Source: a virus. From it: 64,000 nt of DNA. The notes beneath the pieces were generated by a model that worked only from the letters and a program-made list of their open reading frames with translations, was not told where the DNA came from and ran no database searches. Below are positions 7,001-59,350 of the stretch, one piece after another. The stretch lies in the IMG/VR virus record IMGVR_UViG_3300009059_000716, positions 1 through 64,000 of that record. One strand, written 5' to 3'. A program made the translations under genes and the position numbers. The number at the start of each line of letters is the position of its first letter. The stretch's first letter is position 1.

Positions 7001-7795
7001 ATGGCAAAAAATGTTGTAGTATCCTTATCAGGAGGGATGGATTCCTCTACTCTATTATTACGTGCTCTTTCTACGTATGACACAGTAACAGCTTTATCTT
7101 TTAACTATGGTCAGAAACATAGTGTTGAACTTCAAAGAGCTCAAGCACTTGTTGACTACCTTAAGTCTAAAGGTCAAAATGTTACTTACCAATTAATTGA
7201 ACTAAATGGATTAGTTAACCTATTAGACTCAGCTTTAGTATCAGGCGGAGATGATGTACCGGAAGGTCATTATGAGCAAGATAATATGAAAGCTACTGTA
7301 GTACCTAACCGAAACAAAATCTTTAGCTCTATCACACAAGCTGTAGCTTTATCAGTAGCAAATAGAACTGGTAATAATACAGATATTGCTTTAGGTATTC
7401 ATGCCGGAGATCATGCCGTATATCCAGACTGTAGACAAGAGTTTAGAGATGCAGATGATGAGGCATTTAGACAAGGAAATTGGGATGCTGATAAGGTTGG
7501 GTTTTTTACACCATATTTATTAACTGATAAGTTCGGTATTTTACAAGATGGTTTAATTTTATGTGATCTGTTAGATTTAGACTTCGATGAAGTTTACAAA
7601 AGAACTAACACCTCATACAAACCTTATCCATCAGGTAACTCAGATTACAAATCAGCATCTTCAGTAGAACGTATTGAAGCGTTTATTAAACTTGGTCGTA
7701 AAGACCCAGTTCAATATGAAGATGAAACTGGCCCAGTAAGCTGGGAAGTAGCTAAGTCTGCAGTTGAGAAGGTATTAGCCGATCACGCAGGTTAA
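7001..7795 (+). CDS. queC: 7-cyano-7-deazaguanine (preQ0) synthase, zinc-cysteine-less form
   Basis: Converts 7-carboxy-7-deazaguanine plus ammonia and ATP into preQ0. The ATP-pyrophosphatase loop is intact (VVVSLSGGMDSSTLLL, residues 5-20), followed by SFNYGQKHSVEL, VPNRNKIF and GIHAGDHAVYPDCR, all typical of QueC. The odd point is the C-terminal zinc site. Cellular QueC has four cysteines in the pattern C..(8)..CGxCxxC before VER. Here that stretch reads TNTSYKPY then SDYKSASSVERIEAF, with no cysteine. Either the phage enzyme does not need the structural zinc or it is a divergent subfamily. It pairs with queD, queE, folE, queF and dpdA downstream. Confidence 0.93.
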   Translation: MAKNVVVSLSGGMDSSTLLLRALSTYDTVTALSFNYGQKHSVELQRAQALVDYLKSKGQNVTYQLIELNGLVNLLDSALVSGGDDVPEGHYEQDNMKATVVPNRNKIFSSITQAVALSVANRTGNNTDIALGIHAGDHAVYPDCRQEFRDADDEAFRQGNWDADKVGFFTPYLLTDKFGILQDGLILCDLLDLDFDEVYKRTNTSYKPYPSGNSDYKSASSVERIEAFIKLGRKDPVQYEDETGPVSWEVAKSAVEKVLADHAG

Positions 7796-7802
7796 AAGGA
7801 TT

Positions 7803-7875
7803 GCCTCCGTAGCTCAGTTGGTAGAGCAGCTGATTTGTAATCAGCAGGTCATCGGTTCGAATCCGGTTGGAGGCT
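7803..7875 (+). tRNA. tRNA-Thr (UGU)
   Basis: A full cloverleaf: acceptor GCCTCCG/TGGAGGC, GGTTCGAATCC T-arm, anticodon loop TTTGTAA. No CCA is encoded. Confidence 0.92.
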
Positions 7876-7882
7876 CAAGATT

Positions 7883-7966
7883 GCTCGAGTGGTGGAATTG
7901 GTAGACACGTTGGACTTAAAATCCAATGGACATTAGTCCGTGCGGGTTCAAGTCCCGCCTCGAGTA
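7883..7966 (+). tRNA. tRNA-Leu (UAA)
   Basis: Acceptor GCTCGAG/CTCGAGT (first pair G-U), a long variable arm as in class II tRNAs, anticodon loop CTTAAAA. Confidence 0.92.
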
Positions 7967-7972
7967 CAAATA

Positions 7973-8057
7973 GGAAGATTGGCAGAGTGGTCGAATGCGG
8001 CAGTCTTGAAAACTGTTGACTGTAACAGGTCCGGGGGTTCGAATCCCTCATCTTCCG
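7973..8057 (+). tRNA. tRNA-Ser (UGA)
   Basis: Acceptor GGAAGAT/ATCTTCC, class II variable arm, anticodon loop CTTGAAA, G discriminator as expected for serine. Confidence 0.92.
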
Positions 8058-8064
8058 CAATATT

Positions 8065-8138
8065 GGTCTGGTAGTTCAGTTGGTTAGAATACCTGCCTGT
8101 CACGCAGGGGGTCGCGAGTTCGAGTCTCGTCCAGACCG
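8065..8138 (+). tRNA. tRNA-Asp (GUC)
   Basis: Acceptor GGTCTGG/CCAGACC, anticodon stem CCTGC/GCAGG, loop CTGTCAC, G73 discriminator. The GUN anticodon would be a queuosine target in the host. Confidence 0.92.
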
Positions 8139-8152
8139 CAAAATAAATTAAT

Positions 8153-8226
8153 GGGGGATTAGCTCAGCTGGCTAGAGCGCCTGCCTTGCACGCAGGAGGT
8201 CATCGGTTCGACTCCGATATTCTCCA
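8153..8226 (+). tRNA. tRNA-Ala (UGC)
   Basis: Acceptor GGGGGAT/ATTCTCC with two G-U pairs, anticodon stem CCTGC/GCAGG, loop CTTGCAC. Confidence 0.9.
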
Positions 8227-8232
8227 CTTATT

Positions 8233-8304
8233 GGCCCGTTCGTCTAGGGGTTAGGACGCCAGGTTTTCATCCTGGTAACAGGGGTTCGATTCCCCTACGG
8301 GCTA
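8233..8304 (+). tRNA. tRNA-Glu (UUC)
   Basis: Acceptor GGCCCGT/ACGGGCT, anticodon stem CCAGG/CCTGG, loop TTTTCAT. Confidence 0.92.
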
Positions 8305-8313
8305 CAAAATGAC

Positions 8314-8385
8314 TGGTCTATGGTGTAATTGGCAACACAGCTGGTTTTGGTCCAGTCGTTCTAGGTTCGAGTCCTAGTAGACCAA
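8314..8385 (+). tRNA. tRNA-Gln (UUG)
   Basis: Acceptor TGGTCTA/TAGACCA, anticodon loop TTTTGGT. It is the last of seven tRNAs packed at 7-14 base spacing between queC and a radical SAM gene. Confidence 0.9.
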
Positions 8386-8397
8386 CTAAACACAGGT

Positions 8398-9463: not shown

Positions 9464-11119
9464 ATGATACAATTAGGAATAGCAGCATTCTACCACGATT
9501 CAGCAGCATGTATCGTCAAAGACGGTAAAGTAATAGCCGCAGTAGAAGAAGAAAGATTTACAGAAATTAAACACGATGCTGCATTTCCTGTAAATGCAAT
9601 AAAATGGTGTCTGAAAGAAGCAAGAATTAAAATCACAGACATAGATGAAGTATGTTGGTATGAGAATCCTGAAACTAAAAAAGATAGAGTTAATAAAATC
9701 TTTAATAAAAGACCATTTACTACTTTTTTTCTTCGGAAGAAATTCTTACGGGAGTTTAAAACAAAGAATCCGGCTACGTTATTACAAACTATTGGATACA
9801 CAGGAAGGATATCTTTCGTTGACCATCATATGTCTCATGCTGCTTTTAGTTTTCTTACTAGCCCTTACCAATCTGCCGCGATTCTAACCGTAGACGGTGT
9901 AGGAGAATGGGAAACAGTAGGAATATACAAAGGTTCAGAAAACGGTATAGAGAAGGTGTTATCCATTGATTTCCCCAACTCTCTCGGTATGTTATACTCT
10001 ACGGTAACATCTTATTTAGGGTTTAAACCTAATGAAGGAGAGTACAAGGTAATGGGTCTAGCACCGTATGGAAATGCCTCTAAATACTTCGATAAATTAG
10101 ATAAGATATTTTGTCATTCAGATAATAAATTCTGGATAGATCAAAGATACTTTACTTGGGAGTATTCAGAACGTATAATGTTCAATAAAAAGTTTTGCAA
10201 ATTACTTGGATTACCGCCAAGACTTCCGGAAGATGAATTAACACAAGACCATAAAGATTTAGCAGCAGCTTTACAAAAAATCTACGAAAGAGAATTTGTA
10301 AGACTGGTCAAAAGAGCTAAACTTATGACAAGAGAAGTAAATTTATGCCTAGGAGGCGGATGTGCCTACAACGGTGTAGCAAATTCATTAGCATATGATC
10401 ATTTTGACAGTATTCATATTCCTTTTGCACCTTCCGATGCGGGATCAGCAATAGGAGCTTGTCTATATCAGTATAGAGGAGAAAGACAAGATAATTCATC
10501 ACCATATTTAGGTCCTGAATACACTAATTTCATAGTTCAGAGTACATTACATGGGTATGAAGATAAAGTTCAATGGTTTAAATTAACAGAAGAAAAGTTA
10601 ATTAAAAAAACAGCAGAACTTTTAAGAGGTCAAAATATAATAGCTTGGTTTCAAGGTAGAATGGAGTTTGGAGCAAGAGCTTTAGGAAACCGTTCAATTT
10701 TAGCATCTCCAAAAGATCCTAAAATGAGAGAGAAGCTAAATTACGTAATAAAAAAGAGAGAAGGATTTAGACCATTCGCTCCTTCCGTAACAGAAGAACA
10801 AGCCGATAGATGGTTTTATGTTCAAGAGAATATACCTTATATGAATCAAGTTGTAAACGCCAAAGTAAGAGACTTAGAAGCTGCAACACATGTAGACGGA
10901 TCATGTAGAGTTCATACAGTAACTAAAAAACAAAATCCAAGATATCACGCACTCATTACTGAACTTGGTAGAATAGATGAAAAAGCAGTTGTACTCAACA
11001 CCTCTTTTAATCTTAAAGATCAAACAATCACTATGACTCCAAAACAAGCAATAGAAAGATTTATAAATTCAGAAATAAACTATTTAGTAATCAATAATTT
11101 TTTAATAAGAAAAATATGA
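9464..11119 (+). CDS. Carbamoyltransferase (NodU/CmcH/TobZ family)
   Basis: 551 residues, the full length for the family. The N-terminal Kae1-like domain shows GIAAFYHDSAAC, the metal-ligand motif VDHHMSHAAF near residue 120, and the second acidic motif TVDGVGEW. The C-terminal YrdC-like domain shows RMEFGARALGNRSILA and the late VLNTSFNLKDQTI motif. Family members make carbamoyl-adenylate from carbamoyl phosphate and ATP and transfer the carbamoyl to a hydroxyl. In phages, relatives have been connected with carbamoylated hypermodified bases, and elsewhere with sugars. Here it lies between a radical SAM gene and the queD-queE genes. Its acceptor is inference only. Confidence 0.92.
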   Translation: MIQLGIAAFYHDSAACIVKDGKVIAAVEEERFTEIKHDAAFPVNAIKWCLKEARIKITDIDEVCWYENPETKKDRVNKIFNKRPFTTFFLRKKFLREFKTKNPATLLQTIGYTGRISFVDHHMSHAAFSFLTSPYQSAAILTVDGVGEWETVGIYKGSENGIEKVLSIDFPNSLGMLYSTVTSYLGFKPNEGEYKVMGLAPYGNASKYFDKLDKIFCHSDNKFWIDQRYFTWEYSERIMFNKKFCKLLGLPPRLPEDELTQDHKDLAAALQKIYEREFVRLVKRAKLMTREVNLCLGGGCAYNGVANSLAYDHFDSIHIPFAPSDAGSAIGACLYQYRGERQDNSSPYLGPEYTNFIVQSTLHGYEDKVQWFKLTEEKLIKKTAELLRGQNIIAWFQGRMEFGARALGNRSILASPKDPKMREKLNYVIKKREGFRPFAPSVTEEQADRWFYVQENIPYMNQVVNAKVRDLEAATHVDGSCRVHTVTKKQNPRYHALITELGRIDEKAVVLNTSFNLKDQTITMTPKQAIERFINSEINYLVINNFLIRKI

Positions 11120-11615: not shown

Positions 11616-12083
11616 ATGGGAAAATTTCAATCAACAAAAGTCTTTGACGGATTCAGTACGGTATTTCGTCAATGGAGGGCAGATGGTACTCACTGCCAAA
11701 AATTACACGGATACGGAGTATCTTTTAAACTATGGTTTGAAGGAGATCTAGATGAAAGAAACTGGGTCTGGGATTTCGGAGGAATGAAAAGAGCTAAAGG
11801 AACAATCGATGGGATGTCTCCTAAAGATTGGATGGACTATATGTTTGACCACACTTTTATCGTAGCCGAAGATGATCCATTCAGAGATTCCTTCTTAAAG
11901 ATGGATGAGGCTGGTGTAGCACAGGTAAGAATAGTACCTGCTACCGGTGCAGAAAGGTTTGCACAATTTGTATACGACAAGGTAGGGCCTTTTATAGAGA
12001 CTGAGACTGAAGGTCGAGTAAAAGTTATAAAAGTAGAATTTAGAGAACACGGTAAAAACTCAGCTATATATGTCCCTAGGTAG
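11616..12083 (+). CDS. queD: 6-carboxytetrahydropterin synthase-like protein
   Basis: Should convert dihydroneopterin triphosphate, the FolE product, into 6-carboxy-tetrahydropterin. The catalytic Cys is in THCQKLHGYG, and the family motifs WVWDFGGMK, the DHTFIV segment and PATGAERFA (active-site Glu) follow in order. It belongs to the divergent branch in which the first zinc His of E. coli QueD (AAHRL) reads TVFRQW, and HGH reads HGY. The zinc ligands must therefore be arranged differently, perhaps using the His next to the Cys. It overlaps queE by 14 bases. Confidence 0.88.
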   Translation: MGKFQSTKVFDGFSTVFRQWRADGTHCQKLHGYGVSFKLWFEGDLDERNWVWDFGGMKRAKGTIDGMSPKDWMDYMFDHTFIVAEDDPFRDSFLKMDEAGVAQVRIVPATGAERFAQFVYDKVGPFIETETEGRVKVIKVEFREHGKNSAIYVPR

Positions 12084-14434: not shown

Positions 14435-15142
14435 ATGGCTAAAAAATTTATTAAAGGAACCGAATTGGTTCAAGCAGGTTTTGCAAATGGTATTTCTACT
14501 CAATTAGCTCAAAAGCAGGCTAAAGATGGACCCGAAGCTAGACTTACCGAAATGGAGAAAAATGAAATCATTTTAAATGCTTCTAATGCATTTGCAGATT
14601 TCTTAACAGCTTTAGGAGTAGATTACAAATCAGATCCTAACTCATCAGAAACTCCAACTAGAGTAGCTAAAGCATATGTTAACGACTTATGGGCAGGAAG
14701 GTATTCTCCTTTAGATAGAGTTACAGCTTTCCCTTCAGATGGGTATGATGGTATCGTACAAGAAAGCAGAATACCTGTTATCTCTATGTGTTCTCATCAC
14801 CATCAGCAAATTAGAGGAGAAGTAAGCATTGCTTATATTGCCTCAGAAAATGGTAAAGTAGTAGGATTATCCAAACTAAACAGAATTGTAGAACAATTTG
14901 GAAGAAGAGGAGCAATTCAAGAGCAATTAACTGTTGCAATCCATAATGCAGTAGATAAAATCTGTGAAGGAAACCAAGGAGTAGCCGTAATGATAAATGC
15001 TACACATGCTTGTGTATCCTGTAGAGGAGTTAAGCATCAAGGTGCAGCTATGCAGACTGCAAAATTAACAGGAGCATTTTTACACGAAGATTCAGCTAAA
15101 GCAGAGTTCTACAAAAATATAGAATTATCAATTAGAAACTAA
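14435..15142 (+). CDS. folE: GTP cyclohydrolase I
   Basis: Opens GTP to dihydroneopterin triphosphate, the first step of 7-deazaguanine (and folate) synthesis. Zinc ligands are present in MCSHHHQQIRG (Cys plus His) and in ACVSCRGVKH, and the core motifs ETPTRVAKAY and LSKLNRIVEQFGRR are intact. 235 residues is normal for the family. It has its own promoter just upstream, so the pathway entry step may be timed separately from queD-queE. Confidence 0.96.
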   Translation: MAKKFIKGTELVQAGFANGISTQLAQKQAKDGPEARLTEMEKNEIILNASNAFADFLTALGVDYKSDPNSSETPTRVAKAYVNDLWAGRYSPLDRVTAFPSDGYDGIVQESRIPVISMCSHHHQQIRGEVSIAYIASENGKVVGLSKLNRIVEQFGRRGAIQEQLTVAIHNAVDKICEGNQGVAVMINATHACVSCRGVKHQGAAMQTAKLTGAFLHEDSAKAEFYKNIELSIRN

Positions 15143-22904: not shown

Positions 22905-23099
22905 ATGAACAAAGAGGTTATAGAAGTTCGAGGAAACTTGTATCAAGTAGTTAGAAAAATTAAAGAGTCTCAAGTTAACGGTAACGTAGACGGATTAAAG
23001 GCTTGGAGAGAACTTCTTCACTGTGATACAATGTTTAACTCGAATGGAGTATACTACCTAGTAAAAGAAATAACAGACGTAAATATAAACAATGAGTAA
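22905..23099 (+). CDS. Small hypothetical protein before groES
   Basis: 64 residues (NLYQVVRKIKESQVNGNVDGLKAWRELLHCDTMF), possibly a small DNA- or protein-binding fold. It overlaps groES by 8 bases. Not recognised. Confidence 0.6.
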   Translation: MNKEVIEVRGNLYQVVRKIKESQVNGNVDGLKAWRELLHCDTMFNSNGVYYLVKEITDVNINNE

Positions 23100-23400
23100 A
23101 AAGTTACAACCAACAAACGACAGAATCCTCATCAAACCTATTGATGAAGGAGAACAGACTTACGGTTCAATCGTAATTCCAGATTTAGGAAAAGAGAAAC
23201 CAGAAATGGGAGAAGTATTAGCAGTAGGTCCAGGGCGTCAGTCGGAACTTGACCCTTCTAAACTTATTACAGTTAGATCCTGTAAAGTAGGAGATGTAGT
23301 CCTTGTACCTAAAATCGGAACATTAAGAATTGATTTCGAAGGTGAAGAGTATTATATCGCACAAGATAGAGAAATTTTAGCAGTTGTAAAAGAAGCATAG
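23092..23400 (+). CDS. groS: GroES co-chaperonin
   Basis: 102 residues, full-length Cpn10: LQPTNDRILIKPIDEGEQ at the N-terminus, a mobile-loop equivalent TYGSIVIPDLGKEKP, GEVLAVGPGR, and YYIAQDREILAVV at the end. It is followed 2 bases later by groEL. The mobile loop differs from the usual GGIVL sequence, consistent with pairing to its own GroEL. Confidence 0.95.
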   Translation: MSKKLQPTNDRILIKPIDEGEQTYGSIVIPDLGKEKPEMGEVLAVGPGRQSELDPSKLITVRSCKVGDVVLVPKIGTLRIDFEGEEYYIAQDREILAVVKEA

Positions 23401-23402
23401 AT

Positions 23403-25049
23403 ATGAGTAAGAAAATTACATTTTCAAATGACGCTAGAAATAAACTAGCTGACGGAGTAGATAAATTAGCAAATGCAGTTACAGCAACATTAGGTCCATC
23501 AGGCCGTAATGTTATCATCGAACAAGATATGGGTAATCCAGTATCTACGAAAGATGGTGTAACAGTAGCTAAATCTATTGTACTAAAAGATAAAGTAGAG
23601 AATTTAGGAGCACAGATTGTTAAACAAGCTTCTATTAAGACGGCAGAACAGGCAGGTGATGGTACAACAACATCTACCTTACTTGCACAAACTATTCTTA
23701 ATGACGGTATTGATTCTTTAGATGCAGGATCAAATGCAGTAGACGTTAAGAGAGGTATTGATAAAGCAGTAAAAGAAGTAGTTAAGTTTTTAGAAACTGA
23801 TTACTCAAAAGAAATAACGGATGAAGAACAGCTAAAACAAGTCGCTACAATTTCAGCCAACAACGATACAGAAGTTGGAGAATTGATCTCTACTGCTATG
23901 GATAAAGTAGGAAGAGATGGTGTTGTTACAATCGAAGAATCCAAAACAGGAGAAACATATCTCGAAACAGTCGAAGGTATGCAATTCAATCGCGGTTATA
24001 AGTCTCCATACTTCGTTACGGATAACTCTACCATGACTGCTGTTCTTCAAAAACCGTTGATTTTAATTACCGACAAGAGGTTAAATGCAATCAAAGAGTT
24101 ACTTCCAATCCTAGAAAGTGTCTCACAGCAGAACAGATCTTTATTAATAATTGCTGAAGACCTAGATGGAGAAGCTTTATCGACACTAGTAGTTAACAAA
24201 ATGAGAGGAATCTTATCTGTAGCTGCAGTTAAAGCTCCTGACTTTGGAGATAGAAGAAAAGCAGTCCTAGAAGATATCGCAATCTTAACCGGGGGTCAAG
24301 TAATCTCATCAGAGAAAGGAATGAGATTTGAGAAGTTTGACACTAATTGGTTAGGTTCAGCTAATAAAGTTACAGTAGGTAAAGATACTACTACCATCAT
24401 TGACGCTAAAGGAGATGAAGAGAAGATTACCCAAAGAGTAGAAGAGATTAAAAATCAAATTGATGATACTAAATCTCCATACGAAAAAGAAAATCTTCAA
24501 GATAGATTAGCTAAATTCATCGGCGGTATTGCAATCGTTCACGTAGGAGGAATGACAGAAGTAGAGATGAAAGAGAAGAAAGATAGAGTTGACGATGCAC
24601 TACATGCAACCAAAGCAGCTTTAGAAGAAGGAATCTTACCTGGAGGAGGAATTGCATTACTAAATGCAGCCACAATGCTAGAAAGTAGATTAGACTCAAT
24701 TGAATCTAAAGATGAATACAAAGGATATCAAATTGTATTGAATGCATGCGAAGCTCCTTTCAGAAAAATCTTATTAAACGCAGGTTTTACTTCAGATAAG
24801 ATAGGAGAAATTGATACAGAGTTACAAAACTCTAAAGATAAATGGTTAGGTTTTAACCCAAGAGCTGACAAAACAGTTAATATGTTTGAAGCAGGAATTA
24901 TTGATCCAACCAAAGTTACAAGATTAGCACTAGAAAATGCAGCATCGGTTGCTGGTACGATGTTGATTACAGAGGCAGTAGTCTCTAACTTACCAGAGAA
25001 AAACAAAAAAGAAAGTAATGGTATGGATCCAAACATGCTATTAGGATAA
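23403..25049 (+). CDS. groL: GroEL chaperonin
   Basis: 548 residues, full length. The ATP site is complete: [22 protein letters not shown], and the [13 protein letters not shown] loop with the catalytic-type Asp. The apical, intermediate and C-terminal ATP segments follow ([35 protein letters not shown]). The tail ends [10 protein letters not shown] without a GGM repeat. A phage-encoded full GroEL/ES pair suggests folding of a large or difficult phage protein, or dependence on its own chamber. The several - strand ORFs across this gene are shadows. Confidence 0.97.
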
Positions 25050-39475: not shown

Positions 39476-39786
39476 AACCAAAAAGTAATATATACGTAGA
39501 TATAGATGAAACTATCTGTGATTATGAGTACAGAGAAGATAAGTTTAACTACAACTTAGCAAGACCTATACAAATTAATATAGATAAAATTAATAGACTC
39601 TATATTCAGGGACATTTAATTACATACTGGACTGCTAGAGGTTCAAGAACTGGGGAAGACTGGTACGAAGTTACTAAAAATCAATTAGAGGAATGGGGAT
39701 GTAAGTACCACTTCTTAAGTGTAGGAGAAAAACCTGCATATGATTTACTGATATGTGATAAATCTAGAAGGATAGAGGAGATATGA
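39472..39786 (+). CDS. HAD-family phosphatase
   Basis: 104 residues. The nucleophile motif is IYVDIDETICDY (DxD), motif II is ITYWTARGSRTG, and the acidic motif is LLICDKSRRIEE. Size and pattern fit capsule-type HAD phosphatases. In this cassette it could remove phosphate from a nonulosonate phosphate intermediate, by inference. Overlaps neuB by 4 bases. Confidence 0.8.
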   Translation: MKPKSNIYVDIDETICDYEYREDKFNYNLARPIQINIDKINRLYIQGHLITYWTARGSRTGEDWYEVTKNQLEEWGCKYHFLSVGEKPAYDLLICDKSRRIEEI

Positions 39787-40634
39787 AAAAAACCTATATA
39801 ATAGCTGAAATCGGAATTAACCATCAGGGTGATATTAATATTGCAAAACGGTTAATAGATATTGCAGCAGCAGCTGGATGTGATGCAGTAAAGTTTCAAA
39901 AACGTAACCCCGATATAGCAGTCCCTGCAGCACAAAAAAATAAACCTCGTAGATGGCAAGGTCAAGATATGACCTATCTTGAATATAAGTATAAGGTTGA
40001 ATTCGGTAAAGAAGAATACGACGAAATCGATCGATACTGTAAGCAGCAAAACATTACTTGGTCAGCTTCACCATGGGATTATGATTCGGTTGAATTTTTA
40101 AAACAGTATGATTTACCGTTTATAAAAGTACCTTCTGCTATGTTAACAAATCATAAACTGCTTACTTCATGTATGAAGAGTAGTATGAGAGTAATACTTT
40201 CAACAGGAATGTCCACTGAAGAAGAAATAGATGAAGCAGTTAATGTATTAAGAAAAGCTAAACATTTTTTTAGAAACCCTCATCCAATAGGATTACTACA
40301 TTGTAATTCTTCCTACCCTGCTCCTGTAGAAGAACTTAACTTATCCGCTATAAAGACCTTAACCGAAAAATACCCTGATTGTGAAATAGGATACTCAGGA
40401 CATGAGATATTACTAGGTACGACAGTAGCGTCAGTACTACTAGGAGCGTCAATTGTAGAGAGACATGTTACACTAGATAGGAATATGGAGGGATCGGATC
40501 ATGCATGCTCTGTTACTCCACATGGTCTTTTTAAACTAGTTTCAGGAATAAGAGATTTAGAAAAAGCATATGGGGATGGACAAATCAAAGTAACTGAAAC
40601 TGAAAAAGCTGTTAAAGAAAAACTTAGAGGATGA
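39783..40634 (+). CDS. neuB: Sialic/nonulosonic acid synthase, lacking the SAF domain
   Basis: 283 residues. AEIGINHQGDINIAKRLID, CDAVKFQKRNP, ASPWDYDSVEFL, KVPSAMLTNHKLL, LLHCNSSYPAPVEELNL, IGYSGHE and VERHVTLDRNMEGSDHACS are the NeuB barrel motifs in order. It condenses a 2-acetamido sugar (ManNAc or a relative) with PEP. The C-terminal antifreeze-like SAF domain of bacterial NeuB (about 60 residues more) is absent. Overlaps the cytidylyltransferase by 4 bases. Confidence 0.93.
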   Translation: MKKTYIIAEIGINHQGDINIAKRLIDIAAAAGCDAVKFQKRNPDIAVPAAQKNKPRRWQGQDMTYLEYKYKVEFGKEEYDEIDRYCKQQNITWSASPWDYDSVEFLKQYDLPFIKVPSAMLTNHKLLTSCMKSSMRVILSTGMSTEEEIDEAVNVLRKAKHFFRNPHPIGLLHCNSSYPAPVEELNLSAIKTLTEKYPDCEIGYSGHEILLGTTVASVLLGASIVERHVTLDRNMEGSDHACSVTPHGLFKLVSGIRDLEKAYGDGQIKVTETEKAVKEKLRG

Positions 40635-41314
40635 AAAACTTAAATGAAATAGCATTTGTAGTTCAGGCAAGACTTAATAGTAAAAGGGTACCTCAAAAGA
40701 TGATTCGTCCATTTGCTGGTGATACGTTATTTGGTATAGTATTAGACAAGCTATTGGACTGCAAAAATATACCTAACGAAAATATATTTGCTTCTATATA
40801 CGAAGACGAGCTTATAGAGATTGTAGATAATAAACCAATCAGTTATTTTGTTAGAAGTAAAGAATCAGCCGAAGAAGAGGACAATTTACAATTAATATAC
40901 GAATGGCATGATAAGCTTCCAGCTAAGTACAAGTACGTAGTTCTAATTTCTGGTTGTAATCCATTACTTCAAATAAATACGATTGATAGGTTTATAGAAA
41001 AGTTCGTAAACCAACAGGAAGAAAATCTATTTGCAGTCATAGAAAAAAGACAGTACTTCTGGAATAAACAAGGTAAGATGATTAATGATTGGCCGGTAGG
41101 TGAAACAATAATGAATACGAAAGTCATTGAACCTACATATGAAGCAGCACATTGTCTCTACGCTTCTAGATTAGATACTATAAAAAATAATAAATTTATG
41201 GTAGATTTTTCAAAAGAAAACCTTACCTTATATACTATACCAGAACTAGAGTCATTTGATATCGATTACGAATGGCAATTTAAAACAGCTGAACTGTTGT
41301 ATGAAAAAATTTAA
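40631..41314 (+). CDS. Cytidylyltransferase, NeuA/SpsF-like
   Basis: 227 residues. AFVVQARLNSKRVPQKMIRPFAGDTL is the nucleotide-binding opening of CMP-sugar synthases. YVVLISGCNPLLQINTIDRFI matches the acidic/product loop region, with SGCNPL in place of the usual TSP. It probably activates the NeuB product with CTP. Overlaps the dehydrogenase by 14 bases. Confidence 0.8.
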   Translation: MKNLNEIAFVVQARLNSKRVPQKMIRPFAGDTLFGIVLDKLLDCKNIPNENIFASIYEDELIEIVDNKPISYFVRSKESAEEEDNLQLIYEWHDKLPAKYKYVVLISGCNPLLQINTIDRFIEKFVNQQEENLFAVIEKRQYFWNKQGKMINDWPVGETIMNTKVIEPTYEAAHCLYASRLDTIKNNKFMVDFSKENLTLYTIPELESFDIDYEWQFKTAELLYEKI

Positions 41315-42128
41315 AGTAGGAGTATTAGGAAACGGATTCGTAGGAGAGAGTCAAGCATTTGCTTTCTCACCAACTACCGATTTAAGAATTTATGATGTAG
41401 ATCCATTAAAAGCTACTCATACAAAAGAACAAGTAGACGAATGTGATTTTATATTTGTTTGTGTTCCAACACCAATGTATAAAGATGGTTCACAAGATCT
41501 ATCTTATATTGAAAAAGTATTTGAAGAGGCAGTAGAAGGGCCAATCTATATTATCAAATCTACAGTGCTACCCGGTACCACAAAAGAACTCTCTGAGAAA
41601 TATAATAAGATTAATATAGTATTTAGTCCTGAGTTTTTAACTGAGAGAACCGCTAAGTTAGATATGTTAACACAAGCAAGAATTATCTTTGGAGGACCAA
41701 GACAGCATACTAGAAAAGTAAGAGATTTGTTTGAGCAAAGATTCATGAATAGAAATATAATTGAAACAGACTCTACAACTGCTGAGTTAATCAAATATAT
41801 GAACAATACTTTCTTTGCAACCAAAGTATCTATCATGAATGAATTCAAAAGACTTTCAGATGCAATAGGAACTGATTGGGAGACAGCTTTATATGGATTT
41901 GCTTCTGACGGAAGGATAGGAGATAGCCACTTACATGTCCCTGGACCAGACGGTAGAATGGGATACGGAGGAACTTGTTTTCCTAAAGATGTTAACGCTA
42001 TTATAAAATACGGAGAAAAATATGGAACTCCTATGAATACTATAGCTGCAGGTTGGAAGACCAACCTAGAGGTTAGACCAGAAAAAGATTGGGAAAAAGA
42101 TAAAGGTAGAGCAGTAAGCGATGATTAA
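41301..42128 (+). CDS. UDP-sugar dehydrogenase-like protein lacking the C-terminal domain
   Basis: 275 residues from ATG 41301, chosen because the Rossmann start (KVGVLGNGFVGESQAFAF) follows immediately. The middle domain has STVLPGTTKELSEKY, FSPEFLTERTAKLD, a NNTFFATKVSIMNEF helix and the catalytic Cys in YGGTCFPKDV. The family is normally about 430 residues with a C-terminal UDP-binding domain, and here the protein stops shortly after the catalytic loop. It may use a different substrate or need a partner. It overlaps the next gene by 8 bases. Confidence 0.85.
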   Translation: MKKFKVGVLGNGFVGESQAFAFSPTTDLRIYDVDPLKATHTKEQVDECDFIFVCVPTPMYKDGSQDLSYIEKVFEEAVEGPIYIIKSTVLPGTTKELSEKYNKINIVFSPEFLTERTAKLDMLTQARIIFGGPRQHTRKVRDLFEQRFMNRNIIETDSTTAELIKYMNNTFFATKVSIMNEFKRLSDAIGTDWETALYGFASDGRIGDSHLHVPGPDGRMGYGGTCFPKDVNAIIKYGEKYGTPMNTIAAGWKTNLEVRPEKDWEKDKGRAVSDD

Positions 42129-42807
42129 AAATAGTTTTAGGGAAGATATAGAGTTCATTTTTACTAAACTAAAAAATAAAGAGAAGTTTAGTTTTAGTAA
42201 ATACGCTGATGGAGAGTTCGCAATACTAGCTAACCAACGTATAACCAATATCGATAATTGGACTTTTGATCCAACAAAACATTCTGAGATTAGGAATGAA
42301 TTAATAAGATCGTTCCAATTTAAAGATCCTGAATACTACGTAGGAGTTAGCTGTAAGTGCTGCCAACCTGAACAAATAGTAAACTGGATGAGACAAGAAT
42401 CAAAACAAGATGTTCTTACTTGGGCTAACATATTTGTTAATAGTAACTACCCTTACTTCCAAGAGAATTTTATTCCGGAATTTAGTAACCATAAAGTAGT
42501 TTTATTTGCAAGAGAAGATGCTCGTACAAATGAATTACCATTTGAAGTAGAACATATACCTATAACTTCGGAAGCTTTTATAGATAATTTTGATATGGTA
42601 GAAAATTTTCCTATAGAAGAATATAAAGACAAGTTATTTTTATTCTGTGCTGGACCATTAGGTAACATGTTAGCAGCTAAATTTTGGGAAAAGAATAAAG
42701 AGAATACATATCTTGATATAGGTTCAACATTAAACGGATACTTAACTGAAACTAATAGAGGGTACCTTAAAGGAGGTAACACAGCACTAAAAACTTGTAT
42801 ATGGTAA
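42121..42807 (+). CDS. Putative GT-D-type glycosyltransferase
   Basis: 228 residues. FSFSKYADGEFAILANQR resembles the opening of GT-D (DUF1792) enzymes (RYGDGE), and TYLDIGSTLNGYLTE near the end resembles their D-x-G motif. Moderate evidence; otherwise unknown. Embedded in the glycan cassette with overlaps on both sides. Confidence 0.5.
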   Translation: MIKNSFREDIEFIFTKLKNKEKFSFSKYADGEFAILANQRITNIDNWTFDPTKHSEIRNELIRSFQFKDPEYYVGVSCKCCQPEQIVNWMRQESKQDVLTWANIFVNSNYPYFQENFIPEFSNHKVVLFAREDARTNELPFEVEHIPITSEAFIDNFDMVENFPIEEYKDKLFLFCAGPLGNMLAAKFWEKNKENTYLDIGSTLNGYLTETNRGYLKGGNTALKTCIW

Positions 42808-43781
42808 ATAAAGTCTTAATTTGTTTTGGAACAAGACCTGAATGGTTGAAAGTAAAACCTTTAGTTGAGACTTTAGATAACTGTCAACTACTCTTTACCG
42901 GTCAACATAAAGACTTACTTGCTGATATAAAAGTAGACTATAGAATAGAAATAGGAGATCAAACAAATAGACTTGATCAAATCATAAGTGACTGCTTACT
43001 TCAATTCCCAGAAGGAGACTTCGATACAGTCTTAGTTCACGGCGATACAGTTTCAGCTCTTGCTTGTGCTCTAGCAGCATTTAGTAGAAAGAAAAAAATC
43101 ATTCACCTTGAAGCAGGTTTAAGATCTCATGATTTGACTCAACCTTACCCGGAAGAAGGGTACAGACAAATGATATCTAGAATAGCAGATATAAACTTTG
43201 CTCCAACTGAACTGTCAGCTGAGAATTTAAAACAAGAAAGAGTTTTAGGAACAACACACATTGTAGGTAATTCAGTTTTAGATAACTTACTGCCATTAAA
43301 AGATGAAGCAGTATATGGAGACAAAGTTCTAGTCACCTTACATAGATGGGAGAATCATATTTGGATGGATAAATGGTTTAAAGAAGTAAACCAACTAGCG
43401 ATTGATAACCCTACCTTAGAGTTTATCATTCCTCTACACCATCATCCCGAAGTACAAAAACATAGAGAATTACTAACACATGTTAATGTAGTTCCGTCTT
43501 TACCTCATACTGAACTTTTAGATATAATGTTACAATCTAAACTCATCATATCAGATAGCGGAGGACTTCAGGAAGAAGGAACATTCTTTAATAAGAAAGT
43601 AATTGTATGTAGAGATGTAACTGAAAGACCAGAAGGTATAGAAACAGGACATTTACATTTATGTCATTACCCAGAACAGATATCTGATATCTTTTATAAG
43701 ATTTTAAATAATTACGAAATAGATACAAAATGTCCATACGGTGAAGGTAATACAGCCAAACTAGTTAAAGATTTACTATGA
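42801..43781 (+). CDS. UDP-N-acetylglucosamine 2-epimerase (WecB/NeuC family)
   Basis: 326 residues from ATG 42801. LICFGTRPEWLKVKPLVE, LLFTGQHKDL, VLVHGDTVSALACALAA, IHLEAGLRSHDLTQPYPEEGYR, the histidine-rich IPLHHHPEV, and IISDSGGLQEEG are the family motifs. It gives ManNAc or UDP-ManNAc, the natural NeuB precursor. NeuC versus WecB cannot be separated by eye. Confidence 0.92.
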   Translation: MVNKVLICFGTRPEWLKVKPLVETLDNCQLLFTGQHKDLLADIKVDYRIEIGDQTNRLDQIISDCLLQFPEGDFDTVLVHGDTVSALACALAAFSRKKKIIHLEAGLRSHDLTQPYPEEGYRQMISRIADINFAPTELSAENLKQERVLGTTHIVGNSVLDNLLPLKDEAVYGDKVLVTLHRWENHIWMDKWFKEVNQLAIDNPTLEFIIPLHHHPEVQKHRELLTHVNVVPSLPHTELLDIMLQSKLIISDSGGLQEEGTFFNKKVIVCRDVTERPEGIETGHLHLCHYPEQISDIFYKILNNYEIDTKCPYGEGNTAKLVKDLL

Positions 43782-55430: not shown

Positions 55431-57635
55431 ATGAAAGGAACCCTTTTTTCAACAGATTTTGTTAAAGACTCTAATGGAAACTTAAGATTGCTTGAAATCA
55501 ATACAGATACTGCTATTGTTTCTTCTGCAATCAAACAATTAGACTTTACAGGATTTAAACAAGTATTAGAAAGTAATTCTATTACAAAAGTAAAGACAAT
55601 CCATAAACTATATCAAGAAGATATCGTAGAAGCATTAAAAGCATACTTAGATGCAAATGTACCTTCAGTAAACTCTTTTGAAAGTATAGTTGAAGATAGC
55701 AACACTATTTATCCTACATCTGTAGAAGATGCAGCAGATACCTTTATCTTAAGGTTAGCTTATGATGAAGCTGCATTATTAGATAGTGAATATGCTAAAA
55801 ACACACACAATATTCTAAAACTATTCAGCGACAATGGGCAAATTAGTTCAACAGTTGGGTATTATTATGCTGGAGGCGGTAGTATAGAAGACCACCTTAC
55901 AAGAGATTTTAATGCTGAAAACGTTCCTGATATTTTAGTTAAAAACTTGAACACTACTTTAGGAGAGCCGATTGAGTTCTTTAAAATAGGTCAATCAAGT
56001 AAGACAGCTGAAGATAGATTTGCTGATGTATTCGATATGTTAGATGATACTAAAATTGCTATGAACTTCTACAACGATGAAGCAGCAGCAAAAGTAGAAT
56101 CTTTTAGAACATTACACATAGTATACGGAAGCGACCTAAACGTTATCGATGTAGCAGGATTTAAATCTTCAGCTATATTAGATAAACCAGCTTCTCTATC
56201 AGTAGTAGATGAAGATATAGTAACGAAAGTAGATGTAAAGCACTACCATGAATTAACTACTACATTACCTAGATTTGGAGTAGGTTCTAACTACGGAGGT
56301 ATCTTTGAAGAAGAGTTTATTGTAAAAGCAGACGGTACGTTAGTACCTATTAAAGACGCTACAGTAGGAGATTCCTTTAAATCATACTTTATTTCAGGTT
56401 CACCCGATACAGACATTGAATCAGAATATCTAGCATGGACTTACCCAGGATCTGAATTACCTAGTGGTTCTTACGCTACAACTTCTACTTTAGTAAACAA
56501 CTTAGAAGTAGGTTTATTCTATAATATGATCTTCCACGTAACTTTACAAGACGGAAGTGATTTTAGAGCAACAGGAAACTCTCACGTATTAGTTTACGAT
56601 GTACAGGCAGACTTATTAAAGTATGTTGCAGTAAACTATCTATCATCAGATAAACATAAATTAATATCTGCAGGAAATGGATTAGTAGATATTACAGGAG
56701 TTGTTTGTGAGATATTAGATGGGGAGTATTCTTCTCATATTCTAGATATGGAAATAGCCGATACATTCTTCATCGGTGATGGACAATTAAGCGTTAAGAT
56801 TGTTGCCCACAACTGCTTCCCAGCTGGTACTAAAATTACAATGGCTGATGGTTCAGTCAAAAACATTGAAGACGTTAAGGCAGGAGATAAACTATTAACT
56901 ATCAACGAAAATACTTTAGAACAATCAGAAGGTAGAGTTGGAGATGTATTAGTTAAGAAAGATAGATTGTTATTCGAATTCAAATTAGAAGACGGAGGAG
57001 TAATCAAATCTACATCTCATCACAGATATTTCGTAAAAGAAAAGTCATGGTTAACTGCTCAAGATATTCAAGTAGGAGACGTATTAGTTAGATCAAACGG
57101 AGATGATGTCAAAGTAGAATCAATTGAACAGCACGAAGGTGAGTTTGAAGTATTCCATATTATTGATGTAAAAGATAACCATACTTACTACGCAGAAGAT
57201 ATTTTAGTTCATAACTATAAAGCTTGTTTCATCGCTGGAACAGAGATTACTTTAGCGAATGGAGATGTTAAAAATATCGAAGATGTAGCAGTAGGAGAAG
57301 AAGTTCTTACTTACAACGAAGATAAAAAAGAAACAGAAGCAGGAGTAGTAGGAGACTTGAAGAAACATGAAGTTCAATCTGTAATCAGATTAACTCTTGA
57401 TAATGAGAATGTAATCGTAACAACTGAAGAACATCCTTTCTATGTAGTAGATGCAGGATGGGTAAAAGCAGGAGAATTACAACCATTAGATGTTTGTTTA
57501 AAAGAAGACGGTAAAGAATCTCTAATCTCTTCAGTAGAGGTATTAGAAGAGAAACATGAAGTATTTAACTTACTAAGCGTTTCTGAAAACCATAACTTCT
57601 TCGCTAACGGAATATTAGTTCACAATAAAAAATAA
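55431..57635 (+). CDS. Protein with three tandem Hint (intein-like/BIL) domains and an ATP-grasp-like N-terminus
   Basis: 734 residues. The N-terminus (FVKDSNGNLRLLEINTDTAI) looks like the end of an ATP-grasp fold with an E-x-N motif. Residues ~293-461 form a degenerate Hint domain: the start reads GIFEEEF where a Cys is expected, but it ends VAHN before a Cys. The second Hint starts at C462 (CFPAGTKITMADGSVKNIED), has STSHHRYF (block B) and ends VHN at 594-595. The third starts at C599 (CFIAGTEITLANGDVKNIED), has TTEEHPFYV and ends VHN at 731-732, two residues from the C-terminus. This looks like bacterial-intein-like domains that cleave or ligate the protein, with no homing endonuclease. 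It may be a virion or secreted protein. Confidence 0.85.
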   Translation: MKGTLFSTDFVKDSNGNLRLLEINTDTAIVSSAIKQLDFTGFKQVLESNSITKVKTIHKLYQEDIVEALKAYLDANVPSVNSFESIVEDSNTIYPTSVEDAADTFILRLAYDEAALLDSEYAKNTHNILKLFSDNGQISSTVGYYYAGGGSIEDHLTRDFNAENVPDILVKNLNTTLGEPIEFFKIGQSSKTAEDRFADVFDMLDDTKIAMNFYNDEAAAKVESFRTLHIVYGSDLNVIDVAGFKSSAILDKPASLSVVDEDIVTKVDVKHYHELTTTLPRFGVGSNYGGIFEEEFIVKADGTLVPIKDATVGDSFKSYFISGSPDTDIESEYLAWTYPGSELPSGSYATTSTLVNNLEVGLFYNMIFHVTLQDGSDFRATGNSHVLVYDVQADLLKYVAVNYLSSDKHKLISAGNGLVDITGVVCEILDGEYSSHILDMEIADTFFIGDGQLSVKIVAHNCFPAGTKITMADGSVKNIEDVKAGDKLLTINENTLEQSEGRVGDVLVKKDRLLFEFKLEDGGVIKSTSHHRYFVKEKSWLTAQDIQVGDVLVRSNGDDVKVESIEQHEGEFEVFHIIDVKDNHTYYAEDILVHNYKACFIAGTEITLANGDVKNIEDVAVGEEVLTYNEDKKETEAGVVGDLKKHEVQSVIRLTLDNENVIVTTEEHPFYVVDAGWVKAGELQPLDVCLKEDGKESLISSVEVLEEKHEVFNLLSVSENHNFFANGILVHNKK

Positions 57636-57795: not shown

Positions 57796-58323
57796 ATGGT
57801 TACTGAAAAAACGTTATTCTCACAACAAGATTGCGAATACATTAAATCATTTTATGATGTAGCAATTGAGAAGAACGAAAAAGGTTTCAAAATAAACTCA
57901 GACAAATACCCACAAGGTATAGCAATAAAAGACGGTTCAGCAGTATCATGGAATGAAATCCAAAACGATACTCTGGACCGTTTCTTGTTAAGTAAGCTTA
58001 TAGAGTTAGAAATAACTTCACTCCCTTATCTTAAGCTAATGAAGTACGGAGTCGGAAATGAAATGAAACCTCATAGAGATTTTCAGGCATATGATACAAG
58101 TACAATCTATAGATCAACAACAATACAGCTAACCAGTCCGGAAGATTATAAAGGAGGAGAGTTATATGTAGAAGGAGTAAAAGCTAGTAATATACAAGGA
58201 ACTGCAATTATGTTTAACCCCTATCAAACACATTGGGTTACAGAGATTACTGAAGGAGAAAGATGGGTTATAGTAGCTTTTTTAGAAGAGTTTCATTTTA
58301 ATACTAAGAAAAGTTTATTATGA
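57796..58323 (+). CDS. 2-oxoglutarate/Fe(II) oxygenase, prolyl-4-hydroxylase-like (1 of 3)
   Basis: 175 residues, double-stranded beta-helix. Iron ligands HxD in MKPHRDFQ and the distal His in QTHWVTEI; the 2OG-binding Arg in GERWVIVAF; YKGGELYV is the usual GGE strand. All ligands are present, so it is probably active. Overlaps the next oxygenase by 4 bases. The substrate could be protein, glycan or DNA. Confidence 0.87.
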   Translation: MVTEKTLFSQQDCEYIKSFYDVAIEKNEKGFKINSDKYPQGIAIKDGSAVSWNEIQNDTLDRFLLSKLIELEITSLPYLKLMKYGVGNEMKPHRDFQAYDTSTIYRSTTIQLTSPEDYKGGELYVEGVKASNIQGTAIMFNPYQTHWVTEITEGERWVIVAFLEEFHFNTKKSLL

Positions 58324-58829
58324 TTGATCAAAAAGTATTATTTACAGCAGAAGAATGTGAGTGGTTGAAATCCGCACAATCAACTATATACCCACCAGTA
58401 GAAGATACTAAATGGTGGGAGTCACATCGTATAAATTATAGATTTAAAAATATACAAGAAAGAGAAGTATTTGAACAGTCACGTTTAGATTTTGTTGCTA
58501 GTAGAGTTAAACAATTAGGAGTGAAATCTGTTCCTACATATAAAATTATACATTACGGTAAAGGTGGATTCTTCGCCCCTCACATAGATTCAGGGAGAAA
58601 CCATCCAATTAGAAGAAAAACATTATTAGTGCAGCTATCCTCTAAAGAAGATTATTCTGGAGGTGATATGTATGTTAAGGGTGTACTTTTTGAAAAGACA
58701 ATAGGCAATACAATATTATTTGATTCGTCATTAACTCATGAACTAAAATTAATAGAAGGAGGAAATAGATTAGTTATGGTCACATGGTTATCTATTTATA
58801 ACCTTGAGAATCCTAAAACTTTACTATGA
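58320..58829 (+). CDS. 2-oxoglutarate/Fe(II) oxygenase, prolyl-4-hydroxylase-like (2 of 3)
   Basis: 169 residues, clearly related to the preceding gene (both end KT/S-LL; same motif order). HxD in FAPHIDSGR, distal His in LTHELKLI, Arg in GNRLVMVTW, and YSGGDMYV. ATGA overlaps at both ends. Confidence 0.86.
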   Translation: MIDQKVLFTAEECEWLKSAQSTIYPPVEDTKWWESHRINYRFKNIQEREVFEQSRLDFVASRVKQLGVKSVPTYKIIHYGKGGFFAPHIDSGRNHPIRRKTLLVQLSSKEDYSGGDMYVKGVLFEKTIGNTILFDSSLTHELKLIEGGNRLVMVTWLSIYNLENPKTLL

Positions 58830-59350
58830 TAACAGTTAAACATAACGTACTGTCGGATAGAGAGGTAAACAAGCTACTCACTTTATGGTATGATACAAAA
58901 CCTAACCATATTATAACAGACGGCTATAAGTATAATATTGAAGCAGTAGAGATTTTAGACTACATAGATAAATTAAAACTTTCGTATTCTTTTCCAAAAG
59001 AACACTATAGGGACTTTATACTACAGACAATAGATGAAACACATAGCAAAGCTCCTAATCATGACAAATATCACCGACATGAAAATGAATGGACATATGT
59101 TATGTACTTAAATGATAACTATCAAGGAGGAGAAATAGAGTTTACTAATGGAACTATCATTAAACCACAAGTAGGAGATGTTATATACTTTTCACCTGAA
59201 GAAGGACATAGAGTTAAACCCCCATATGATTTTACCGAACAGTATTTTAAACACAACGGTAAGAGTATTCTTATGAATAAAAGATGGTCACTTGTCGGAT
59301 TCATGAATTCTGACATTATAAACGAGAATAAAAAAACATGCTTAATTTAA
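58826..59350 (+). CDS. 2-oxoglutarate/Fe(II) oxygenase-like (3 of 3), altered metal site
   Basis: 174 residues. YVMYLNDNYQGGEIEF, GDVIYFSPEEGHRV and KRWSLVGFMN are the expected strands, with distal His and an Arg. The first motif reads YHRHENEW, where HxD would be expected, so one ligand may be Glu or differently placed. It belongs to the P4H fold but is more distant from the other two. It overlaps the glycosyltransferase by 13 bases. Confidence 0.75.
   Translation: MITVKHNVLSDREVNKLLTLWYDTKPNHIITDGYKYNIEAVEILDYIDKLKLSYSFPKEHYRDFILQTIDETHSKAPNHDKYHRHENEWTYVMYLNDNYQGGEIEFTNGTIIKPQVGDVIYFSPEEGHRVKPPYDFTEQYFKHNGKSILMNKRWSLVGFMNSDIINENKKTCLI

Follow-up and report, generated by a model that had tools for sequence, protein, structure and literature searches.

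A phage ATP-grasp protein with tandem BIL-like Hint domains as a putative auto-processing precursor

BIL domains act through a thioester at the Hint cysteine and cyclization of the asparagine in a His-Asn (HN) pair (PMC7664689, PMC7765530, PMC4031507), and the absence of Cys, Ser or Thr at position +1 is their hallmark (PMC7664689). The A-type BIL domain of C. thermocellum (PDB 2lwy), about 135 amino acids long and free of an endonuclease, begins with Cys1, carries a TxxH block B and ends in His-Asn with no Cys, Ser or Thr at +1. In Tetrahymena, the BIL2 domain of BUBL1 (6y75, 6tmm) lies within a multi-domain precursor, and a Lys isopeptide on a ubiquitin-like domain has been reported for it (PMC8616854). 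We analysed a 64,000-nucleotide stretch (the window) of a 94,822-base virus record, IMGVR_UViG_3300009059_000716, in which one gene encodes a protein that resembles both systems. Its two canonical Hint domains, Hint2 and Hint3, share the listed features of 2lwy, which is their best structural match, and Hint3 is also near BIL2 in sequence and fold. Unlike 2lwy, the window Hints are phage-borne, arranged in tandem (up to three in the family) and placed at the very end of a protein that starts with an ATP-grasp domain and a dead Hint. BUBL1 differs in being eukaryotic, in processing ubiquitin-like domains and in lacking an ATP-grasp domain of the phage type.

The open reading frame at 55431-57635 on the + strand encodes 734 amino acids. 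Its ATG at 55431 is the sole start in the frame, which a stop closes a few codons upstream, and full-length homologs begin at the same motif, M(K/Q/N)GT..S.D. The parts of the protein are as follows.

55431..56279, + strand: N-terminal domain, residues 1-283, with a GSP-synthetase/glutathione-synthetase-like ATP-grasp fold (Foldseek, hhalign, conserved residues)
56298..56813, + strand: Hint1, residues 290-461, a degenerate Hint that keeps His460-Asn461 (hhalign, PDB 2lwy, Foldseek)
56814..57215, + strand: Hint2, residues 462-595, BIL-A-like, with C462, T528/H531, H594-N595 and Tyr at +1 (Pfam PT-HINT/Intein_splicing)
57216..57224, + strand: three-residue linker Tyr-Lys-Ala between Hint2 and Hint3 (translation)
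57225..57626, + strand: Hint3, residues 599-732, BIL-A-like, with C599, T665/H668 and H731-N732 (PT-HINT, best stretch 613-732; 6tmm; Foldseek)
57627..57632, + strand: C-terminal Lys733-Lys734, past the last Asn

Hint2 and Hint3 match PT-HINT (E 4.5e-29), Intein_splicing (6e-21), intein_Nterm (6e-12) and intein_Cterm (2.8e-7) in Pfam and NCBIfam, and a phmmer search of the PDB retrieves 2lwy at 1e-14 and 6tmm at 2.4e-11. The nearest solved folds to the window Hints, by PDB sequence and fold searches, are thus BIL domains. The two Hints align to each other with a score of 277, against a shuffle mean of 33. Each has the N-terminal Cys and block B of an A-type BIL domain (C462 with T528SHH531; C599 with T665EEH668), and each closes with His-Asn before a non-nucleophilic residue (HN594-595 then Tyr; HN731-732 then Lys). 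A preliminary description made from the letters alone had proposed three tandem C-terminal Hints, the second and third beginning CFPAG and CFIAG, with TxxH block B motifs and VHN ends, a three-residue linker after Hint2 and a last HN two residues from the end. The database matches of Hint2 and Hint3, the profile and fold of Hint1 and the translated junctions (IVAHN461-C462FPAG, ILVHN595-YKA-C599FIAG and ILVHN732-KK*) bear this out. Because they are only 134 amino acids each, Hint2 and Hint3 leave no room for a homing endonuclease, as had been noted. An intein with such an endonuclease was rejected on this length and the lack of an insert between blocks B and F, and a class 1 intein on the Tyr and Lys at +1 and a C-extein of just one or two residues.

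Conservation of these residues extends far into the family. Across a 45-member homolog set with identities of about 30-50%, the Hint2 catalytic residues remain invariant or nearly so (C462 in 39/39, T528 in 37/38, H531 in 39/39, HN in 38/38). Cys, Ser or Thr was never found at +1 after the His-Asn of a canonical Hint in the family homologs: the residue following the Hint2 HN is R, K, F, Y, W, L, I or E, and that following the last HN is Lys in 28 of the 29 clusters whose last Hint has an HN, and Arg in one. In six further clusters the last Hint lacks an HN. Members with such a last Hint include L037, L038, L043, L051, L090, L200 and L205; it stands where other members have their HN-ending Hint, and those that were read end in ...VSGLGD.. 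and a short tail, resembling B-type BIL or Hedgehog Hints. Likeness to the Hedgehog autoprocessing domain or B-type BIL is limited to these six clusters, several with VSGLGDN; the last Hint of the window protein, in contrast, keeps its HN, and no sterol-binding region was seen in the family.

Hint1 has no Pfam match in the window protein, and its single-sequence similarity to Hint2 is not significant (Z 2.2). A profile of 45 homologs, in contrast, aligns with the Hint2 profile over its whole length (hhalign probability 96.8, E 2.6e-10) and finds 2lwy at 1.9e-4. Structure prediction had been named in the preliminary description as a check on the Hint folds; an AlphaFold model of residues 1-461 (pLDDT 85.8, pTM 0.77) returned 2lwy in Foldseek at E 3.5e-9 and TM 0.81. 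These results confirm that Hint1 is a Hint fold, recognizable by profile and fold but too degenerate in single sequence, so that all three units belong to the Hint superfamily by profile, fold or both. The tandem Hint span given earlier, residues 293-734, holds except for its start, as Hint1 begins near residue 290. Consistent with the earlier claim that Hint1 has lost its N-terminal Cys while ending in HN before a Cys, 41 of 45 homologs have Gly where Cys1 would be; the block-B Thr and His are absent as well, and the block-F His position is Asp444 in 45/45. In the aligned homologs H460 is kept in 44/45 and N461 in 45/45, while a few members of a wider family set have AN, YN or SN instead. A class 3 intein (WCT block-F Cys) was rejected for Hint1: its only Cys, C426, is not conserved in homologs, and Asp444 holds the block-F His position. 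Asparagine cyclization is the sole BIL reaction conceivable for Hint1, and the Asp in place of the block-F His makes even that doubtful. That the HN is almost invariant despite this substitution suggests that Hint1 may have a further role.

Residues 1-283 resemble, in the predicted model, an ATP-grasp fold of the glutathione-synthetase/GSP-synthetase type. Foldseek with the 1-461 model finds YjfC (7uk6, E 8.6e-7), YgiC (7uk8, 6.6e-6) and GSS-like 5oev/5oet (about 7e-5). The domain shares with E. coli YjfC/YgiC and GSP synthetase the ATP-grasp fold, the DF..D..G..(K/R)LLE.N.DT motif and a sequential structural match over about 320 columns; its own motif, DFVKDSNGNLRLLEINTDTA, aligns to a 20-residue counterpart in YgiC. 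In contrast to YjfC/YgiC, the phage domain lacks about 90 N-terminal residues, falls below the Pfam cut-off and is fused to Hints, and its ligase activity is only putative. No member of the 45 reached the PF03738 (GSP_synth) cut-off (best E 0.12), one of 16 records gave a PF03738 match (E 0.002, 12.6 bits), and a sequence search of the PDB with the domain returned only weak thioredoxin noise. The family assignment rests mainly on fold, since the hhalign match to YgiC/YjfC is weak (E 9e-5, probability only 59). E22, N24, R108, K171, K185 and R226 are invariant or nearly so, which suggests a predicted active nucleotide site; of the conserved residues, the profile places only E22 and N24 on YgiC. 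A circularly permuted ATP-grasp, an idea drawn from motif order, was dropped, as the YjfC match is sequential with the N-terminal part missing.

Scans of viral contigs gave up to 112 matching loci in a single scan, of which the best 80 were kept. All scans together yielded 83 distinct proteins, and the parsed proteins fall into 39 clusters at 60% N-domain identity. A conserved core of ATP-grasp domain and Hint1 precedes the canonical Hints throughout the family (the Hint1 region is present in 45/45 aligned members), and the number of canonical Hints varies: none in 4 clusters, one in 15, two in 19 and three in one. A genome contig scan with the N domain found no relatives in bacterial or archaeal genomes, on which ground a bacterial origin was rejected, and residues 1-456 gave no match among INPHARED isolated phages even at E 1. 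The gene family thus appears to be phage-only among the genomes searched. Intein_splicing matches in the window genome all fall inside the Hint gene, and in related records with a PT-HINT match, PT-HINT falls in the same gene family only. In phage NCTB (L093, 2224-9483), three tail-region proteins end in Hint-like domains, one of them an almost stand-alone Hint. Like the window protein, these proteins (SBV38301, SBV38304 and SBV38305) have a Hint whose HN is followed by just a few residues; they differ in having tail-fibre-like N-terminal parts, one Hint each and no shared ATP-grasp domain. We regard their Hint tails as analogous; the N-terminal parts are not homologous to the window protein.

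Core and canonical Hints differ in composition. Across 40 Hint-bearing proteins, Ser falls from 10.7% (N domain) and 13.8% (Hint1) to 5.3% past the Hint1 HN/Cys boundary, and the Lys content goes from 4.9% and 3.7% up to 7.4% (Wilcoxon p < 1e-10); in the window protein the break is located at Asn461/Cys462. It may merely mirror two unrelated domain families. Hint-less members terminate 5-10 residues past the Hint1 HN, so residues 1-461 are able to stand without the Hints. The composition break and these ends together indicate that 1-461 behaves as one unit and the canonical Hints as an add-on. In a comparison with an ortholog (L006), 24.5% of amino acids differ in the N domain, 12.9% in Hint1, 3.7% in Hint2 and 6.7% in Hint3, at fourfold-site divergences of 0.34, 0.38, 0.33 and 0.23. 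Because fourfold divergence is alike in the N domain, Hint1 and Hint2 and lower in Hint3, these comparisons point clearly to strong purifying selection on Hint2, and probably on Hint3, where recombination may contribute to the low divergence. In another contig (L005, 988-3192), the Hint3 DNA is identical to window positions 57225-57626 while the N domains differ by 14%, which suggests recent recombination inside the gene. Exchange of the last Hint between phages is possible; slower Hint evolution accounts for part of the pattern.

We favour, at a probability of roughly 60%, the reading that the protein is an auto-processing precursor, in which BIL-type Hints process the C-terminal tail of a core formed by the ATP-grasp domain and the dead Hint. 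The mature core would be residues 1-461, a GSP-synthetase-type ATP-grasp domain with the catalytically disabled Hint1, and Hint2 and Hint3 would be BIL-A-type self-processing domains within a short C-terminal tail. Cys462 and Cys599 would form thioesters with the preceding residue, and Asn595 and Asn732 would cyclize, cutting the chain after themselves. The Asn461 thioester would then react with water, with an amine from the short tail, the conserved Lys being one candidate, or with some other amine, yielding the free core, the core with a rejoined tail (...HN-YKA-KK) or the core attached to something else. Autoprocessing, already suggested in the preliminary description, is the likely role because the catalytic residues are kept in distant homologs and purifying selection is strong. 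The ATP-grasp domain and the family with 0-3 canonical Hints were absent from that description, and they change what the Hints would release. A point against this reading is that the protein has two Hints although one would suffice, and removal of the Hints by cleavage alone leaves the retention of Lys at the last +1 without explanation. That nearly fixed Lys and the resemblance between native tails and those that splicing would make are leads away from plain cleavage. In being Ser-rich and low in Lys, the core is similar to tail proteins encoded by the same genome, a likeness that is only suggestive of virion placement; the Hint gene of the window record is not adjacent to tail genes, and the contractile-tail baseplate genes of the record lie outside the window.

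A possible but doubtful alternative is that the canonical Hints are inteins that excise themselves from the short C-terminal tail, whose rejoined ends would restore a basic sequence such as HN-YKA-KK. BIL domains without a +1 nucleophile can still splice at some level, and without Cys, Ser or Thr at +1, ligation would proceed as in BIL domains, an amine attacking directly. A short tail with K or R within four residues of the Hint1 HN is seen in L157 (FKKVQ) and in each of the eight distinct Hint-less proteins (AKGYGFI, RKGFI, AKIEPPK, PPAKIEPPK and NVFREEPDQK), and virtual splicing of Hint-bearing proteins yields similar tails (AKGQV, FKYGGGFK, YKAKK, APRESLPCK, ITKNFT). These tails, however, are very short and variable, their resemblance was judged partly by eye, and in several one-Hint members no basic residue appears before position 6. 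After Hint2, zero-linker proteins mostly have aromatic/aliphatic-Lys and AP-linker proteins mostly Arg, as if the flanks were joined, although shared ancestry of related proteins means that this correlation is not independent. Cleavage, moreover, predominates in BIL domains (PMC7664689). The earlier view that this is not ordinary splicing holds as regards the missing +1 nucleophile, but the short restorable tails and the Lys at +1 still admit a splicing outcome. For the linker after Hint2, the preliminary description had offered excision and joining alike.

The same Lys bears on a second, unlikely alternative, that the Hints are a conjugation device in which a polyamine or the side chain of a Lys would attack the thioester at Asn461 (or Ala598), so that the core becomes linked to another molecule. 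BIL2 (6y75/6tmm), which makes a Lys isopeptide bond (PMC8616854), is among the top Hint3 matches; Lys is the near-universal residue at the last +1; and the N domain is similar to enzymes that carry a peptide-spermidine ligase annotation. The conserved Lys could nevertheless serve local chemistry only, the acceptor is hypothetical, and the last Hints of six clusters lack HN and Lys. We consider it improbable that cleavage is minor and that the Hints are kept as stable structural or regulatory domains of the virion or enzyme. Hint1 does persist in the family without catalytic Cys and His, but canonical Hint2 never loses these residues, most clusters keep the HN in the last Hint, and some members lack canonical Hints altogether. 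A reading of the canonical Hints as selfish or mobile inteins, with no lasting function for the phage, is very improbable: their number ranges from 0 to 3 and some last-Hint pairs are far more alike than the N domains (L061/L088, 73% versus 34%), but slower Hint evolution also gives higher Hint identity, and the Hints have no endonuclease and sit at a single fixed place in one gene family, with no other Hint gene in the genomes searched.

The genes found around the Hint gene at different loci are for the most part 2OG-Fe(II) oxygenases and sulfotransferase-like, SET-like and GDSL-like genes; SGNH-like and DUF932 genes were also examined. They suggest a modification-rich region and name no pathway. 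The 2OG-Fe(II) oxygenase family occurs near the Hint gene in 43 loci, and in the window three consecutive genes of this family (57796-59350) lie directly downstream. A carbamoyltransferase gene lies at 9464-11119, and in other contigs ORFs of a family judged similar by eye (cluster c61) lie upstream of the Hint gene. Pfam matches to QueC (7001-7795), a PTPS-type, QueD-like protein (11616-12083) and GTP cyclohydrolase I (14435-15142) point to a 7-deazaguanine (preQ0) pathway, perhaps used in DNA modification. NeuB, CMP-sugar cytidylyltransferase and UDP-GlcNAc 2-epimerase family genes among glycosyltransferase-like ORFs (39783-43781) form a predicted phage-encoded pathway for a sialic-acid-like sugar. 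The window also holds a GroES-like ORF (by eye) followed by a Cpn60/GroEL gene (23092-25049) and a row of seven tRNA genes (7803-8386).

A full-text search of openly licensed literature found no paper naming both an ATP-grasp and a Hint domain, nor did the literature searched describe the phage-wide combination of BIL-type processing domains with an ATP-grasp domain and a dead Hint that is retained. As a long shot, the protein could be a phage-specific protein-conjugation device, in which tandem BIL domains would activate the C terminus of the peptide-amine-ligase-like ATP-grasp domain itself as a thioester to be joined to Lys or a polyamine, making ligase and substrate one self-processing chain. 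The chemistry of BIL domains is known and few of their jobs are; here a family in large phages, widespread in IMG/VR, carries 0-3 BIL-like domains at one fixed place, and it offers natural comparisons with and without the Hints.
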